Part shown: in pieces, positions 1,185 to 7,095 of the stretch
Numbering within the stretch: the first letter of the stretch is position 1
Layout: every line of letters starts with the position of its first letter
Source of the DNA: Caldisericota bacterium
GTDB lineage: Bacteria > Caldisericota > JANLFM01
Length of the DNA stretch: 7,216 nt
NCBI GenBank assembly: GCA_024655865.1
Contig: JANLFM010000045.1
Location: 1-7,216 of the forward strand
Direction of reading: 5' to 3'
Notes under the pieces: generated by a model
Seen by the model: the letters and a program-made list of their open reading frames with translations, nothing else
What the model was told of the DNA's origin: nothing
Databases searched by the model: none
Made by a program: the position numbers and the translations under genes

Positions 1185-4100
1185 ATGGAAAGAGGGCATT
1201 ACCGGGAAGGAAAAGAATTGCTGAAGCAATATCTGGAGCAGTTAACTCAGATTTTTAATCGTGGAGATGCCAGGGAGGAAAGCTATTATTCCATTCTGGA
1301 AGGATTATTGAAGGAATACGCGGATTTCACCGGCAAGAAAAATATTCAAGTAACCACCCTGCCCAAGAAAACAGAAGCCGGAAACCCCGATTTTAGAGTG
1401 TGGGACGGGAAGCAGCACATCGTCGGTTATATTGAGGCCAAAGCGCCAACAGTTGATGACCTGAACCAGATTGCAGAATCTGCTCAATTGAAGCGCTACC
1501 GGGACACTTTTCCCAACTTGATCTTAACTAATTTTATCGAATTCAGGCTTTATCGTAACGGCGATTTGGATGAGCGCGTGCAGATCGCCAGGCCTTTTAT
1601 CCTCCATAGGCTCCAAATGAGACCCCCGGTTGAAAATGAGGCAGGCCTCTTTAAACTGCTGGAGAAATTTTTCTCTTATTCTTTCCCCGAAATCCACGAC
1701 GCTAAAACCCTGGCCATGGAATTGGCGAAGAGAACGCGCTTTTTAAGGGATGAGATTATCAAGCAGGAATTAGAGGAAGAGTCAAGCCCGGAAAAGGAGT
1801 CAATATCAGCTTTCTACGAAGCATTCAAAAAGTATTTAATCAGCGGTCTAACAAAGGAGGAATTCGCGGATCTTTATTCCCAGACCATCACTTATGGGCT
1901 TTTCGCGGCTCGCACCCGTTCGGAAAATAGCTTTAACAGGAAACTGGCATACGATAGCATTCCCCATACCATTGGAATTTTGAAAGATTTGTTCAAGTTC
2001 ATTTCGCTTGGGAACTTGCCCCAGCAAATGGAGTGGATCATTGATGATATCGCAGAGGTCCTGGCGGTCACGGATGTCTTTAAAATCCTCGACCAGTACT
2101 TCCGGGAGCACAAAGGCAAGGATCCTATAGTACATTTTTATGAGACTTTTCTTGCCCAGTATGACCCTCAGACTTATGAGACTTTTCTTGCCCAGTATGA
2201 CCCTCAGACCAGAGAAAAGAGGGGGGTCTATTACACCCCGGAACCCGTTGTTTTATACATAGTGAGGTCTCTGCACCATATCCTTAGGGAGCATTTTAGA
2301 AAGAGCGACGGCTTCGCGAGTTCGGGAGTGACTGTCCTTGACCCGGCGGCGGGAACGCTCACCTTCCTTGCTGAGGCGGCAAAATTAGCGGTTGAGGAAT
2401 TTACAACTAAATACGGCGAAGGCGGAAGAAAGGAATTCATCAAGGATTACATCCTTAAAAACTTTTACGCCTTTGAACTCATGGTCGCTCCTTACACTAT
2501 TGGTCACCTGAAAATGTCCTTCCTTTTAGAGGAATTAGGGTACAAGCTACATGAGGATGATAGGTTCCACCTTTACCTTACTAATACGCTGGAGATGGAG
2601 GAACTTGATCAGACGAAGGTTCCAGGTATTGCTTCCCTTTCTGAGGAATCCCATTTAGCGGGCAAGATCAAAAAAGAACAGCCCATTCTGGTCATTTTAG
2701 GTAATCCTCCCTATTCGGGGCATTCTGCCAACATTAATCCCTGGATTGATAAGCTCCTTAAAGAAGATGTGGACGGCCTTCAGAGCTACTATAAGGTCGA
2801 TGGAAAGCCCCTGGGCGAGAAAAACCCCAAATGGCTGCAGGACGATTACGTTAAGTTCATCCGCTTTGCTCAGTGGAAGATTAACCAGGCGGGGGAAGGG
2901 GTTTTGGGATTTATTACCAATCACAGCTACCTCGACAATCCCACCTTCCGGGGCATGCGGCAATCTCTGATGAACAGTTTTAATGAGATTTATATCCTTG
3001 ACCTCCACGGCAATAGCCTGAAAAAGGAGAAGTGCCCCGATGGCTCCAAAGATGAGAATGTCTTTGATATCCAGCAAGGGGTAGCTATCGCCTTATTTAT
3101 CAAGAGAAAGGGCGAGCATAAAGAGTGTCAGGTTTACCATTCAGAAATCTGGGGGCTGAGAGAGGAAAAATATAATTTTCTTCTAACCAACGATATTAAA
3201 ACTACGAAATGGGAAATGTTGTCGCCGAAATCTGAGTTTTACCTCTTCATCCCGAGGGAGGAAAGCCTTTTAAGCGCCTATCAAAAATTCTTAAAGATAA
3301 CCGATGTCTTTCCCGTAGGGAGCGTGGGAATAGTTACGGCCAGAGATAAACTTACCATCGCCTGGACACCAGAAAAGATGTGGCTGACTGTCATGAATTT
3401 TTCAAGATTAGACACCGAAATAGCCAGAGAAGTATACCAGTTAGGCAAGGATGTGAGAGACTGGAAAGTGGAACTGGCGAAGAAGGATTTAAAAGAAAGC
3501 GGTTTGGATAAAAGGAAAATTGTGCCGATTCTGTACCGTCCATTTGATATTAGGTACACGTATTACACCGGTAAATCCCGCGGTTTTCATTGCATGCCGC
3601 GACCGGAAGTTATGCGCCACATGATGCAGGAGAATTTGGGGTTGATTACTGCCAGACAAATGGATAAATCGGGAATACAGCCTGTTTTTGCTACTAATTC
3701 AATAATAGATGCCCATTCAATAACTTCAGCAGTCTCAATCTCTAATCTTTTCCCCCTCTACCTCTACCCCGACTCAGACAAAGATCACCTCTTTAACCAA
3801 GAAAAACCGCCAGAGGAGAGGGAACCGAACATCAACCCCGGTCTTTTTGCCAGGCTCATTGAAGTCTATGGAAAGGAACCGACTCCGGAGGAGATTCTCT
3901 ATTACCTCTACGCTGTGCTCTACTCCAACATCTACCGCGTAAGATACGCTGAATTTCTGAAAACCGATTTCCCCAGGGTCCCTTTCACCCAGGATTATGG
4001 GCTGTTCTCTAAAATGGCTGAATTCGGTAAAAGGCTTGTAGAGTTGCATCTCCTTAAATCAGAAGAACTCGACCCCCCTTTGGCTAAATTCCAGGGGCAG

Positions 4101-4379
4101 GGGGACGGCAAAGTCGGTAAACTCAAATACCTCGATGCAAAGGTGTATATAAACGATGATCAGTATTTTGAGGGTATCACACCAGAGGTCTGGGAATACC
4201 AGATAGGCGGTTATCAAGTCTGCGATAAATGGCTTAAAGATAGAAAAGGCCAGAGATTAGGGCTTGATGAGATAAAGCGATATTGCCAGATCGTTACCGC
4301 CCTTTCAAAGACAATCGAAATCCAGAAAGAGGTCGACGCCCTTTACCCAGAGGTCGAAGAGGAAGTCATAGAATTTTAA
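1185..4379 (+). CDS. Single-chain restriction-modification enzyme (type IIG, with type ISP-like C-terminus)
   Basis: This intact 1064-residue protein combines cleavage and N6-adenine methylation. The N-terminal domain has a PD-(D/E)xK signature: P68-D69, then E84-A-K86 on a strand (GYIEAK). The methyltransferase starts near RGVYYTP (346-352, motif X region), followed by DPAAGT (386-391, AdoMet-binding motif I) and NPPY (507-510, the catalytic motif typical of adenine methylases). The C-terminus carries RPFDIRYTYY (from residue 785) and MPRPEVMRHM, characteristic of type ISP C-terminal recognition regions. No DEAD-box helicase lies between nuclease and methyltransferase, unlike true type ISP enzymes such as LlaGI, so type IIG is the better class. 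The ATG follows an AAGAGGGA ribosome binding site. The gene looks AT-richer than both flanks, consistent with horizontal acquisition, and no separate methylase or specificity subunit is present. Target sequence and activity cannot be read from the sequence. A 36-bp tandem duplication (residues 319-342) precedes the methyltransferase. Confidence 0.92.
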   Translation: MERGHYREGKELLKQYLEQLTQIFNRGDAREESYYSILEGLLKEYADFTGKKNIQVTTLPKKTEAGNPDFRVWDGKQHIVGYIEAKAPTVDDLNQIAESAQLKRYRDTFPNLILTNFIEFRLYRNGDLDERVQIARPFILHRLQMRPPVENEAGLFKLLEKFFSYSFPEIHDAKTLAMELAKRTRFLRDEIIKQELEEESSPEKESISAFYEAFKKYLISGLTKEEFADLYSQTITYGLFAARTRSENSFNRKLAYDSIPHTIGILKDLFKFISLGNLPQQMEWIIDDIAEVLAVTDVFKILDQYFREHKGKDPIVHFYETFLAQYDPQTYETFLAQYDPQTREKRGVYYTPEPVVLYIVRSLHHILREHFRKSDGFASSGVTVLDPAAGTLTFLAEAAKLAVEEFTTKYGEGGRKEFIKDYILKNFYAFELMVAPYTIGHLKMSFLLEELGYKLHEDDRFHLYLTNTLEMEELDQTKVPGIASLSEESHLAGKIKKEQPILVILGNPPYSGHSANINPWIDKLLKEDVDGLQSYYKVDGKPLGEKNPKWLQDDYVKFIRFAQWKINQAGEGVLGFITNHSYLDNPTFRGMRQSLMNSFNEIYILDLHGNSLKKEKCPDGSKDENVFDIQQGVAIALFIKRKGEHKECQVYHSEIWGLREEKYNFLLTNDIKTTKWEMLSPKSEFYLFIPREESLLSAYQKFLKITDVFPVGSVGIVTARDKLTIAWTPEKMWLTVMNFSRLDTEIAREVYQLGKDVRDWKVELAKKDLKESGLDKRKIVPILYRPFDIRYTYYTGKSRGFHCMPRPEVMRHMMQENLGLITARQMDKSGIQPVFATNSIIDAHSITSAVSISNLFPLYLYPDSDKDHLFNQEKPPEEREPNINPGLFARLIEVYGKEPTPEEILYYLYAVLYSNIYRVRYAEFLKTDFPRVPFTQDYGLFSKMAEFGKRLVELHLLKSEELDPPLAKFQGQGDGKVGKLKYLDAKVYINDDQYFEGITPEVWEYQIGGYQVCDKWLKDRKGQRLGLDEIKRYCQIVTALSKTIEIQKEVDALYPEVEEEVIEF
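2138..2209 (+). repeat. Perfect 36-bp tandem duplication inside the R-M gene
   Basis: Positions 2138-2173 and 2174-2209 are identical and adjacent. At the protein level the 12-residue unit YETFLAQYDPQT occurs twice (residues 319-330 and 331-342), immediately before REKRGVYYTP. Relatives, as I recall the family, have one such unit. The duplication keeps the frame and lengthens the linker between the helical region and the methyltransferase. Confidence 0.97.
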
Positions 4380-4493: not shown

Positions 4494-4819
4494 ATGAGAA
4501 AGCTTAGCGCAAGTACGCTCCTCCATAAGGGAACTCTTCCGCCCGGCCAAGGTGCGTTTGAAGTTTCTGGAATTCTCAAAAGGATCATTCCGTCTCCTTG
4601 ACCTGTCTTCAGATTGGCATCTCCCGCATCCTCAGGGAGGAGTTCTGGGCCTTCTATGAGAATGACGATAACCTGGAGGAGATGAGGGCTGCTTTAAGGA
4701 GATGGACCTCTGAGGTGTATAATGGAAAACGACCACACCAGGGTTTAGGGTACCTTACCCCGGCACAATACCTTTTAAGTTTTAAGAGGGGCGAAAGTGT
4801 ATCGCATGCAGTGAACTAA
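4494..4819 (+). pseudogene. IS481-like transposase remnant: frameshifted HTH fused to the C-terminal end
   Basis: An AAAGAAAGGAG ribosome binding site precedes an ATG at 4494, but that frame closes at 4601. HTH-like sequence appears in a second frame (RELFRPAKVRLKFLEF, 4528-4575). After a shift near 4574 it continues in the frame that ends at 4819 (SQKDHSVSLTCLQIGISR). Together these resemble the KVLEFYxxH..VSLTCRxFGISR helix-turn-helix of IS481-type transposases. The sequence then jumps straight to the C-terminal part: ILREEFW, followed by VYNGKRPHQGLGYLTPAQYL, the YN..RPHxxLgyltP motif of rve-type integrase cores. The DDE catalytic region that normally lies between is absent. A TTG at 4598 could start a 73-residue product from the last frame, but that would be inactive as a transposase. 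Family assignment rests on motif recall; an IS3-like relative is the main alternative. Confidence 0.75.
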
Positions 4820-4834
4820 TACCCCCTCTTGACA
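4816..4834 (-). repeat. Right terminal inverted repeat of the IS remnant
   Basis: Read on the minus strand this is TGTCAAGAGGGGGTATTAG. It overlaps the transposase stop codon, as IS right ends often do, and matches the solo end at 1112-1130 in inverted orientation. Its outermost bases on the plus strand form TTGACA. Confidence 0.55.
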
Positions 4835-4856
4835 AACGTTTGTTCGACGTTCTAAA
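4829..4856 (+). promoter_or_regulatory. Candidate hybrid promoter at the IS edge, with a 12-bp palindrome
   Basis: A perfect -35 hexamer TTGACA (4829-4834) forms the last bases of the IS, pointing outward. TCTAAA (4851-4856, 4/6 to TATAAT) lies 16 bp downstream in flanking DNA. The palindrome ACAAACGTTTGT (4832-4843) overlaps the -35 and spacer. Extended to 4845, AAACGTTTGTTC resembles the Firmicutes LexA core GAACNNNNGTTC with one mismatch. The palindrome crosses the IS junction, so it may be accidental. Confidence 0.4.
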
Positions 4857-4894
4857 CTGAGGGCAGGAAGCAGGCCTCCCCAAGCTTCTCCCTT

Positions 4895-4929
4895 ACAGGG
4901 TCGGCACAAGTCGGCCCTGTTTTTGTTTT
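4895..4929 (+). terminator. Rho-independent terminator
   Basis: An 11-bp stem (4895-4905 with 4910-4920, two G-U pairs) closes a four-base ACAA loop. It starts ACAGGG and ends CCCTGT, and is followed by TTTTTGTTTT. It would stop read-through from the R-M and IS region. If the candidate promoter at 4829-4856 is active, it would also act as a leader terminator about 30 nt after the start site. The next gene begins 34 bp downstream. Confidence 0.8.
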
Positions 4930-4962: not shown

Positions 4963-5187
4963 ATGGCAATTGAAAATCCAATAGGAAAGAGGCTCACCCT
5001 GAAGCTCTCCAAGGGAACGGATCCGGAGACCGGGAAGCCGATTTACACCTCGGTTTCCATCTCCAAGATCATTCCTGCGGCGGAGGCCGACGCCTTACTC
5101 GCTACCGCCAACGAAATCGCCGGGCTCCTCCTCTATCCGCTCTACGATGTGCAAGCCGTCACCACGGTGGAGCTTCTGGAGGGCTAA
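4963..5187 (+). CDS. DUF1659-like small protein
   Basis: This 74-residue protein (MAIENPIGKRLTLKLSKG...) has the layout of the DUF1659 family: a beta-hairpin with GKRLTLKL, a GTDPETGKPIY turn, and an SVSISKI strand. Then comes one helix (AAEADALLATANEIAGLL) and a closing strand ending VTTVELLEG. There is no signal peptide or membrane segment. The ATG at 4963 was chosen over an in-frame ATG at 4936: AAAGGAG lies 9 nt before it and the protein then starts as family members do. DUF1659 genes are known as small Firmicutes proteins often near DUF2922 genes, as here; their function is unknown. It is the first gene after the terminator and lies 23 bp before the next ORF, so they are probably co-transcribed. 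Confidence 0.8.
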   Translation: MAIENPIGKRLTLKLSKGTDPETGKPIYTSVSISKIIPAAEADALLATANEIAGLLLYPLYDVQAVTTVELLEG

Positions 5188-5210
5188 GCTAAAGGAAAGG
5201 AGGTGGAAAA

Positions 5211-5552
5211 ATGGCCAAGGTATATGCTCCTTTGATGTCCATTGATGCGTCCGGGACCTACGCCAACCAGCTGACCTACGCCAAGTGGAAGGGGATCCGC
5301 TACGTGAGAAATCACGTGATCCCGATGAACCCCAGGACCGCGAACCAGGTGTTGATCAGAGACGCTTTCACTGATGCGGTAAGCCAGTGGCACCAGGAGG
5401 ACCAGACTACCAAGGACGCCTGGAAGGCTGCGGCTTTAGCTGCAGGAAGGCCCCTGAGCGCCTTCAACCTCTACGTGGGGAAGTTTGTCTCCTGGGTGAA
5501 GGTGAACACTACCAACCCACCCAGCCCCTTCCTGCCCACTTCTACTCCCTAA
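5211..5552 (+). CDS. WKG/YVR-motif protein of unknown function, phage-associated type
   Basis: A strong ribosome binding site (AAAGGAGG, 7 nt spacing) precedes this 113-residue ORF. The protein opens with SIDASGTYANQLTYAKWKG and then IRYVRNHVIPMNPRTANQ, followed by R-DAFTDAVSQW and later DAWKAAA. This spacing (KWKG..YVR...P.NPRT..Q...R..F..A...W......W) is a pattern I recall from small uncharacterised proteins in phages and Firmicutes genomes. A hydrophobic aromatic segment (FNLYVGKFVSWV) precedes a Pro/Thr/Ser-rich tail (NPPSPFLPTSTP). No enzyme motif, signal peptide or membrane helix is evident. Repeated aromatic residues suggest a structural or binding role, but that is speculation. It lies between the DUF1659-like and DUF2922-like genes in the same direction. 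Confidence 0.8.
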   Translation: MAKVYAPLMSIDASGTYANQLTYAKWKGIRYVRNHVIPMNPRTANQVLIRDAFTDAVSQWHQEDQTTKDAWKAAALAAGRPLSAFNLYVGKFVSWVKVNTTNPPSPFLPTSTP

Positions 5553-5581
5553 AGGGGAGGGGAATCCATTCCCAACCCTTT
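5551..5581 (+). terminator. Hairpin overlapping the stop of the WKG/YVR gene, possible weak terminator
   Basis: AAAGGG (5551-5556) pairs with CCCTTT (5576-5581), and inside it GGGAAT (5560-5565) pairs with ATTCCC (5568-5573). The inner loop is only two bases, so the innermost pairs would open. Only a mixed CCTTAAA follows instead of a U tract, so it may protect the mRNA 3' end rather than terminate. Confidence 0.35.
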
Positions 5582-5618
5582 CCTTAAACGCAACAACACT
5601 TGCATGTTTGGGTTAGAA

Positions 5619-5648
5619 CTCCGCTTCTGCTCCGCTTCCACACCGCTT
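5619..5648 (+). repeat. Short 11-bp-period direct repeat in an intergenic region
   Basis: CTCCGCTTCTG, CTCCGCTTCCA and CACCGCTT follow each other with an 11-bp period, about one helical turn. The repeat lies in the 155-bp gap between the WKG/YVR and DUF2922-like genes, which otherwise shows no gene. It could be a simple slippage product or a binding-site array. Confidence 0.45.
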
Positions 5649-5707
5649 ATGTTCGATAAAGTGGGCTGACGAATTTCGGCTGGAAGTTCAAGAAAGGAGA
5701 GTGAAGA

Positions 5708-5932
5708 ATGCCCGATACGAGGACTTACCTCAAGCTGGTTTTCACCACTCAGGAAGGTGGGACCCACACGATCTCCCTCCGGGATCCCAAGAGCAACCTG
5801 ACAAGCCAGGAGGTTTCCCAGGTGATGCAGAACATCGTCTCGAGGAACATCATCCTGGCAAGCTCCGGGGAGCTCACGGGGATCAAGGAGGCCTACATCT
5901 CGGGAACGACAGTAACTGAGATTCTGCCCTAG
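5708..5932 (+). CDS. DUF2922-like small protein
   Basis: This 74-residue protein follows a good AAAGGAGA ribosome binding site. It begins with a strand TYLKLVFTT, a glycine turn (EGGTHTISLRDPK), a helix (LTSQEVSQVMQNIVSRNI), and ends with EAYISGTTVTEIL. This is the usual DUF2922 shape and length, from family recall. No catalytic motif, signal peptide or membrane segment is visible. Its strand-turn-strand-helix-strand order resembles the DUF1659-like protein two genes upstream, and both end in a T-V-x-E-L/I strand, so the two may share ancestry or pair with each other (inference). Function is unknown. It is separated from both neighbours by 120-155 bp gaps containing hairpins, so it may have its own transcript ends. 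Confidence 0.8.
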   Translation: MPDTRTYLKLVFTTQEGGTHTISLRDPKSNLTSQEVSQVMQNIVSRNIILASSGELTGIKEAYISGTTVTEILP

Positions 5933-5950
5933 TCAGGGCAATTGGGGGAG

Positions 5951-5975
5951 AGGGGCGGGGTCTACCCCCGCCCCT
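5951..5975 (+). terminator. GC-rich perfect hairpin after the DUF2922-like gene
   Basis: AGGGGCGGGG (5951-5960) pairs perfectly with CCCCGCCCCT (5966-5975) around the loop TCTAC. Only TAGTTG follows, so the U tract is poor. It begins 18 bp after the stop codon and probably acts as a terminator or transcript-stabilising 3' end. Confidence 0.5.
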
Positions 5976-5981
5976 TAGTTG

Positions 5982-5998
5982 AGGCTCTGTGAGAGCCT
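5982..5998 (+). other. Second short hairpin in tandem with the first
   Basis: AGGCTCT (5982-5988) pairs with AGAGCCT (5992-5998) around the three-base loop GTG. It starts 6 bp after the GC-rich hairpin and has no U tract. The two together may form a bipartite 3' end or a leader structure for the downstream membrane-protein gene. Confidence 0.4.
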
Positions 5999-6065
5999 GA
6001 AAGCTTAAGGGGGAGAAAGGGGGAGGTCTGCTTCCCATAAACCAAATACTCAGGAGGTGGAAAAA

Positions 6066-6290
6066 ATGGAGATCTCTAATTGGACTAAATTGGCGGTGGT
6101 GGTGATTGTCTGCGCGGCGGCGATTATTTTAGGATATGCCGGGAAGCTGGACTCCCAGGCCGTGGTAGCTTTGCTTTCTGCTTCTCTGGGATATGTTTTC
6201 GGGAATGCTCACGGGGTGATCTCCGCTGTGCAGAATTTAAATAAGGTTCAGGGGAATAAGACGCCAAGCGTTCCGCCAGATGGAGGATAA
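6066..6290 (+). CDS. Small two-helix membrane protein, holin-like
   Basis: A 74-residue protein starts at the ATG 8 nt after AGGAGG (6052-6057). The GTG at 6057 overlaps that ribosome binding site and is rejected. Residues 8-26 (LAVVVIVCAAAIILGYAGK) form a clear membrane helix. Residues 31-50 (AVVALLSASLGYVFGNAHGV) form a second, weaker one, leaving a polar, positively charged tail (NLNKVQGNKTPSVPPDGG). Size, hairpin topology and position directly before an amidase match class II-type holins, which make membrane pores that let leaderless endolysins reach the wall. No sequence family is recognised, so holin is inferred from topology and context; a small anchor or regulator of the amidase is the alternative. 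Its stop codon is 1 bp before the amidase start, and its last codons contain the amidase ribosome binding site. Confidence 0.75.
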   Translation: MEISNWTKLAVVVIVCAAAIILGYAGKLDSQAVVALLSASLGYVFGNAHGVISAVQNLNKVQGNKTPSVPPDGG

Positions 6291-6291
6291 A

Positions 6292-7095
6292 ATGAAGATC
6301 GCCATTGATGCCGGACACGGAAAGGACGGGGATCCCGGGGCCGTTGGACCCTACGGGACTAAAGAGGCGGAGATTACCCAAGCTTTGGCCCTGCAATTGG
6401 GGAACTTCTTCCTGGCATTAGGGCAGGAGGCCTTTCTCTGCGACCGCTCCTTATATGCTTCAGAAAGAGCGGTGCAGGCCAAGGATCAGGGATGCGATAT
6501 TTTGCTCTCCCTGCATTGCAATGCCGGGGGTACTCAAGCCCAAGGAATTGAGGCTTGGTTCTCGCACGGGAACGCGGACGGGCAAGAGTTGGCTCAAAGG
6601 ATCCTCTCAGTTTTGATCTCTGAGACCGGAGAACCCTCAAGAGGTGTCAAGGACGACGCCGACTGGCGCCCTGCGTCTGACCCTACCTGGACCGGGGGAA
6701 TGGGGGTCCTCCGGAATTTCCCAGGCCCCGCTGTACTGATTGAACTTCTTTTTATCTCCAACCCTCAAGAGGAAAAGCTCCTTGCCTCCCGGGAATTCTT
6801 AGAGAAGTGCGCCCACGCTATCGCCTGCGGGGTGCTGGACTTCCTGAATTCCTGGAAGAAGGGGAACCCGGGAGTGAGTAATCCCTCTCAAGCGCTTGAT
6901 CCTTTCCCTGACCTCTCCCCTACCCTCTGGGAGGGGAAGGCGCGGAAGATGGTTTTAGCCCTGCGCGAACTGGGGATAATTACGGGGTATGAGGACGGGA
7001 CATTCAGGCCGGATCAACCTATTTCCAGGATGGAAGCCGCCTCCCTCATCTACCGCACGCTCGCCTATTTAGGAAAGCTCCCACCTCTGGAATGA
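6292..7095 (+). CDS. N-acetylmuramoyl-L-alanine amidase (Amidase_3) with a C-terminal SLH motif
   Basis: This 267-residue zinc amidase cleaves the bond between N-acetylmuramic acid and L-alanine in peptidoglycan. Expected residues are present: H9 in DAGHG, E25 in KEAEIT and H75 in SLHCNA as zinc ligands, and E151 in VLIELLFISNP as the catalytic glutamate. After a Ser/Pro linker, residues 205-260 form one SLH motif (FPDLSPTLWEGKARKM..., GYEDGTFRPDQPISRMEAA). SLH motifs bind pyruvylated secondary wall polymers and usually come in threes, so one is few. No signal peptide is present; the protein starts directly in the catalytic domain, as phage endolysins do. The ATG at 6292 is preferred over 6280 because GGAGG lies 5 nt before it. 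It is tightly coupled to the holin-like gene. A lysis enzyme is most likely, with a host wall-remodelling amidase as the alternative. Confidence 0.93.
   Translation: MKIAIDAGHGKDGDPGAVGPYGTKEAEITQALALQLGNFFLALGQEAFLCDRSLYASERAVQAKDQGCDILLSLHCNAGGTQAQGIEAWFSHGNADGQELAQRILSVLISETGEPSRGVKDDADWRPASDPTWTGGMGVLRNFPGPAVLIELLFISNPQEEKLLASREFLEKCAHAIACGVLDFLNSWKKGNPGVSNPSQALDPFPDLSPTLWEGKARKMVLALRELGIITGYEDGTFRPDQPISRMEAASLIYRTLAYLGKLPPLE

Follow-up and report, generated by a model that had tools for sequence, protein, structure and literature searches.

In the phi29-like phage KonjoTrouble, gp33 and gp34 form a holin-endolysin cassette. Two further systems serve as background. In streptococcal fratricide, the wall hydrolases CbpD and LytA act under a competence regulator, and DNA is released. 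The uviA-uviB genes combine a UV-inducible sigma factor with the holin-like protein BhlA/UviB. A further point of comparison is p6 of phage phi29, a DNA-wrapping protein whose fold was called novel by its authors (PMC10899789).

The bacterial locus analyzed here resembles each of these in part. Like gp33-gp34, the cassette family to which it belongs has a YvrJ-family gene in the holin position beside a wall hydrolase, but the KonjoTrouble endolysin is of another type than the cassette amidases. Unlike in the phage, the bacterial cassette is not surrounded by phage genes and has a DUF1659-DUF2922 pair in front, and its members combine apparent LexA- or ComK-type control with SLH or SPOR wall-binding domains. 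The likeness to fratricide lies in the wall hydrolase, the competence regulator, and a possible DNA release; the enzymes and regulators are different, and the fratricide set has no holin gene or DUF pair. With uviA-uviB, the cassette shares a sigma factor, a small single-helix membrane protein, and probable DNA-damage control, but BhlA and YvrJ were unrelated in profile comparison (0.8%), and a BhlA/UviB ancestry of YvrJ was rejected. The strand-strand-helix-strand order of p6 recurs in the DUF1659 model, although the structural score is below the level of a relation and there is no sequence similarity between the two. In the open literature searched, we found no described role for DUF1659, DUF2922, or YvrJ (of 5.4 million papers, one mentioned DUF1659 and none DUF2922) and no description of the cassette. 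Apparently, the gene set is widespread among bacteria yet undescribed.

RESULTS

The window carries an accessory copy of a conserved cassette

The window is the whole 7,216-nucleotide contig C39 of a draft, MAG-type assembly (1.82 Mb, 63 contigs). Five open reading frames within 4963-7095 run in one direction, each preceded by a Shine-Dalgarno site, by which the starts were set (4963, 5211, 5708, 6066, and 6292; Table 1). The amidase probably starts at the ATG at 6292, which has GGAGG ahead of it. The DUF1659 and DUF2922 proteins are members of their Pfam families (61.6 bits against a gathering cut-off of 24.1 for PF07872 and 78 bits against 25.5 for PF11148), and both amidase domains exceeded the Pfam cut-offs (Amidase_3, PF01520, E 8e-35, 120.8 bits; SLH, 1.5e-11). 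No match in Pfam was obtained for the proteins encoded at 5211-5552 and 6066-6290. Frames, Shine-Dalgarno sites, and Pfam matches thus agree with the earlier note, which had described five same-direction genes including DUF1659, DUF2922, a membrane protein, and an amidase. The 5' boundary of the repeated unit is at about 4824 and takes in the promoter and the LexA box, which corrects the previous start at 4963.

Table 1. Features of the cassette in the window
Feature	Positions	Strand	Remarks
Promoter	4824..4858	+	TTGACA 4829-4834, TAAACT 4853-4858; promoter scan
LexA/SOS box CAAACGTTTGTTCG (reverse CGAACAAACGTTTG)	4833..4846	+	Inside promoter, between -35 and -10
Intrinsic-terminator-like hairpin in leader upstream of DUF1659	4895..4925	+	11 pairs, then T run
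DUF1659 protein, 74 aa	4963..5187	+	PF07872, E 6e-17; predicted beta-beta-alpha-beta
YVR protein, 113 aa	5211..5552	+	No Pfam family matched
DUF2922 protein, 74 aa	5708..5932	+	PF11148, E 5e-22; predicted beta-beta-alpha-beta
Small membrane protein, holin position	6066..6290	+	Hydrophobic segments read from sequence; no family
Amidase_3 (N-acetylmuramoyl-L-alanine amidase) with one SLH domain, without signal peptide	6292..7095	+	

The genome contains a chromosomal copy on contig C22, with DUF1659, DUF2922, an Amidase_3 with SLH, and YvrJ behind the amidase. Extra copies, about 72-95% alike in DNA, are located on C39 (the window), C42, C35, C34, and at the end of C13. Five copies were alike from CTCTTGACA in the promoter onward and unrelated upstream of CTCTTGACA. 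The window genes are an accessory copy of a conserved cassette. The extra copies adjoin restriction-modification genes (Type ISP, Type I), DUF3800 genes, or an integrase; the restriction and DUF3800 genes beside several of them suggest that the cassette may mark island borders. The window-type membrane protein was seen in the extra copies of this genome only.

Several observations concern the surroundings. The cassette in the window adjoins a Type ISP restriction-modification enzyme (1185-4379; Type_ISP_C, 1.5e-90), and insertion-element remnants, an IstB-like fragment and a transposase integrase-core tail, lie at 180-605 and 4598-4819. In the C42 copy (L017, 3273-4289), the amidase gene is spread over several frames, indicating that it is broken or misassembled. 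A DUF3800-IX RNA (L020, 396-463; Rfam RF02968, 51.7 bits) has a DUF3800 gene and the cassette copy of C13 as neighbors.

The gene order recurs across phyla

DUF2922 was present in 33 of the 54 genomes of the phylum to which the window belongs. There, DUF1659 directly precedes DUF2922, and in most families YvrJ and an amidase follow; depending on the family, the latter is of the Amidase_3 or the Amidase_2 type, and SLH is often attached. A plasmid of Peribacillus asahii carries DUF1659-DUF2922-YvrJ-amidase, the four genes being annotated as such. Among 80 Bacillaceae loci, DUF1659-DUF2922-YvrJ was nearly constant, and amidases were rare.

A first contig scan with the window DUF2922 as the query gave no match. 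For the second, an approximate consensus query was used, and every match was confirmed by tblastn. DUF2922 was found in 100 of 199 sampled Bacillota genomes. We read 60 Bacillota loci in full: DUF1659 precedes DUF2922 in 59 of them, and within four genes there is a YvrJ gene in 43, a ComK-like gene in 20, and an amidase in 18, leaving 42 loci without an amidase at that distance. Among downstream same-strand genes, both amidases (16/166 versus 5/544 elsewhere in the same stretches, p 3e-7) and ComK-like genes (21/166 versus 2/544, p 3e-12) were enriched. With the plasmid set and the 59 of 60 loci, the gene order is far beyond chance, and the recurrence with amidases for which the earlier note had proposed a survey was seen across phyla. 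What is conserved is the core DUF1659-DUF2922-membrane protein-(amidase), in which the membrane protein is usually YvrJ. The YVR protein, previously taken for a general member, is outside this core: among the 54 genomes of the phylum, it occurs only in this one, in three accessory copies.

Other arrangements were also encountered. In one family of the same phylum (L036, L043, and L046), a DUF1659-DUF2922 pair without YvrJ or amidase is convergent to a PilT gene. L021 (1047-2753) encodes DUF1659, DUF2922, a coiled-coil membrane protein, an uncharacterized 189-aa protein, and Holin_LLH, again without YvrJ or amidase. One genome (G239) had 8 DUF2922 matches; the seven that were read (L207-L213) each stand beside a DUF3102-type gene.

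The two DUF proteins are probably distant relatives

In AlphaFold models (pLDDT 92 for DUF1659 and 79 for DUF2922), both proteins adopt a strand-strand-helix-strand order. Profile comparison with hhalign gave scores of 90% and 82% in favor of homology over about 50 residues, compared with 0.2% for a reversed control. The likeness of the predicted folds and these values speak for the suspected common ancestry, and DUF1659 and DUF2922 appear to be distant relatives. Structurally, the DUF1659 model came closest to phi29 p6 (PDB 8pw2; Z 5.8, 59 residues, 2.3 A), and DUF2922 matched p6 with Z 3.9. Both models were nearest to phi29 p6, T7 Gp2, and phi29 p56, with scores too low to prove a relation. 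A Foldseek search of the models returned no match under E 0.001, no sequence relative with a solved structure was convincing for either protein, and no known fibre or shell protein was matched by sequence or fold. DUF1659 and DUF2922 probably function together as a cytoplasmic pair; that they bind DNA in the manner of p6 is a guess.

DUF2922 was absent from 50,697 phage records and from the viral contigs searched, and its candidacy as a phage protein was dropped, though one PHROG of no assigned function matches it. Among 19 tested proteins of KonjoTrouble, there was neither DUF1659 nor DUF2922.

The membrane protein and the amidase resemble a holin-endolysin pair

The YvrJ of the chromosomal copy is a true PF12841 member (59.4 bits against a cut-off of 29.5). 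YvrJ matches a PHROG holin family (1e-7) and is related to KonjoTrouble gp33 (E 1e-17), which is annotated as a holin and lies directly before the endolysin. The window membrane protein matched neither YvrJ (PF12841) nor any holin family. Of the earlier proposal that it is a putative holin, the position thus stands, and membership in a holin family does not. By homology and position, respectively, YvrJ and the window protein may be holins. In L171, the slot after DUF2922 is taken by another phage holin family, and in L021 such a family is encoded four genes on from DUF2922.

The window amidase retains the catalytic residues H, E, H, and E when aligned with solved amidases. Most cassette amidases begin 5-11 residues before the catalytic motif, which leaves no room for a signal peptide, as in endolysins; unrelated amidases of the same stretches differ in this respect. 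Amidase_3 and Amidase_2 alternate between cassettes. That the hydrolase and the membrane protein are each exchanged for unrelated genes of like kind speaks most strongly for roles in wall cutting and membrane opening, respectively.

LexA boxes and competence regulators accompany the cassette

The LexA motif CRAACN4GTTYG has 10 sites in the whole genome, of which 5 are upstream of cassette copies (<0.01 expected in that little sequence). A gene of the DNA polymerase III alpha type also has a perfect box at its start. The genome encodes LexA with an S24 domain; no LexA box was found at its lexA gene. Of the boxes in the 60 fully read Bacillota loci, 13 fell within the cassette or immediately ahead of it (86 kb) and 3 in the remaining 620 kb (p 1e-15); the reversed motif gave 0 and 7 sites, respectively. 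Several Bacillota boxes stand before the ComK-like gene; 49 of the 60 loci have no strict box. A box at the promoter together with LexA in the genome would place the cassette in the window within the LexA (SOS) regulon.

The chromosomal copy is without a LexA box and faces an HTH and ImmA/IrrE peptidase pair. Such pairs constitute another kind of DNA-damage switch. In the leader of this copy (L016, 8443-8535), a long hairpin overlaps a terminator-like hairpin, as in attenuation (z -3.0). For the leader ahead of DUF1659, an Rfam search produced no match.

The ComK-family neighbor reached 97.4% in profile comparison with ComK, and one member was over the Pfam cut-off. Conversely, the top 16 matches in a ComK profile search all belonged to the ComK-like family of the cassette. 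In 16 of 80 Bacillaceae loci, a sigma-70 gene is near the cassette, in most cases immediately upstream of DUF1659, and ComK paralogues are beside the cassette in 4 of 80. The SOS boxes and competence regulators, missed by the earlier note, are the most telling feature of the cassette. RecD2 helicase and/or ComF genes were noticed near the cassette in L171, L197, L203, and L205, and SbcD-like genes, recognized by eye only, in some Bacilli. ComEC was present in 192 of the 199 sampled genomes; since it is nearly universal, its co-occurrence with the cassette says nothing, and its phylogenetic profile was dropped as evidence for competence.

DISCUSSION

We assign a probability of about 0.5 to the reading that the window genes are an accessory copy of an SOS- or competence-controlled cassette of the holin-endolysin type that is kept by bacteria. 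The earlier idea of a module like that of phage lysis fits the membrane protein in holin position, the amidase, and the recurrent order. Upon DNA damage, RecA would be activated, and LexA would be cleaved and leave its box within the promoter. Read-through of the leader terminator would then permit synthesis of both DUF proteins, the membrane protein, and the amidase. With the membrane protein acting as a holin, the amidase, which has no signal peptide, would pass to the wall and cut peptidoglycan there, held by its SLH domain. Lysis or a local opening of the envelope may result, and DNA may be released or let in. The same genes seem to be wired to a sigma factor or a regulator of the ComK family in many Bacillota, which would tie envelope opening to competence. 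Nearly all Bacilli copies are without an adjacent amidase and without a LexA box, so in Bacilli lysis by this amidase cannot account for everything.

A possible but doubtful alternative is that the cassette serves DNA uptake and not lysis, with the amidase and membrane protein opening the wall locally to DNA that the DUF proteins bind or guide within the cell. The ComK-family gene in a third of the fully read Bacillota loci, true ComK paralogues beside the cassette in Bacilli, sigma-70 genes directly upstream, RecD2 and ComF neighbors, the PilT gene adjoining the pair in one family, and the weak fold match to the DNA-binding p6 all point this way. However, a membrane protein of the holin type and an amidase without a signal peptide suit lysis better, and the ubiquity of ComEC makes its co-occurrence uninformative. 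We consider it unlikely that the cassette is a phage remnant or satellite without a role in the host, carried by prophages or islands and kept by recombination. In its favor, YvrJ and the holins that replace it are phage genes, and integrase and restriction genes neighbor the extra copies. Against it, the copies read had no phage structural genes in their surroundings, and DUF2922 is missing from the phage and viral sequences searched and occurs in half of the sampled Bacillota genomes. We give still less credence to the DUF proteins being cargo, for instance building blocks of a filament or particle that lysis would free. Such a role would suit a pair of small proteins that are rich in beta structure, have no signal peptide, show no other export route, and are encoded ahead of a holin-type gene and an amidase gene; against it, neither protein matched a known fibre or shell protein in sequence or fold.

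Our preferred reading, a cassette of the holin-endolysin type under SOS or competence control, suggests that bacteria open their envelope deliberately upon DNA damage. A more specific version is tentative: a p6-like, DNA-binding DUF1659-DUF2922 pair would act with a phage-derived holin and the amidase in releasing or importing DNA, controlled by damage and competence. The shared cassette, with its LexA boxes and ComK-family regulator, provides a context in which DUF1659, DUF2922, and YvrJ can be tested, and it hints that DNA damage, competence, and the opening of the envelope are linked in settings other than phages. If the p6-like reading is true, damaged cells would share or acquire DNA through a controlled opening of the envelope.
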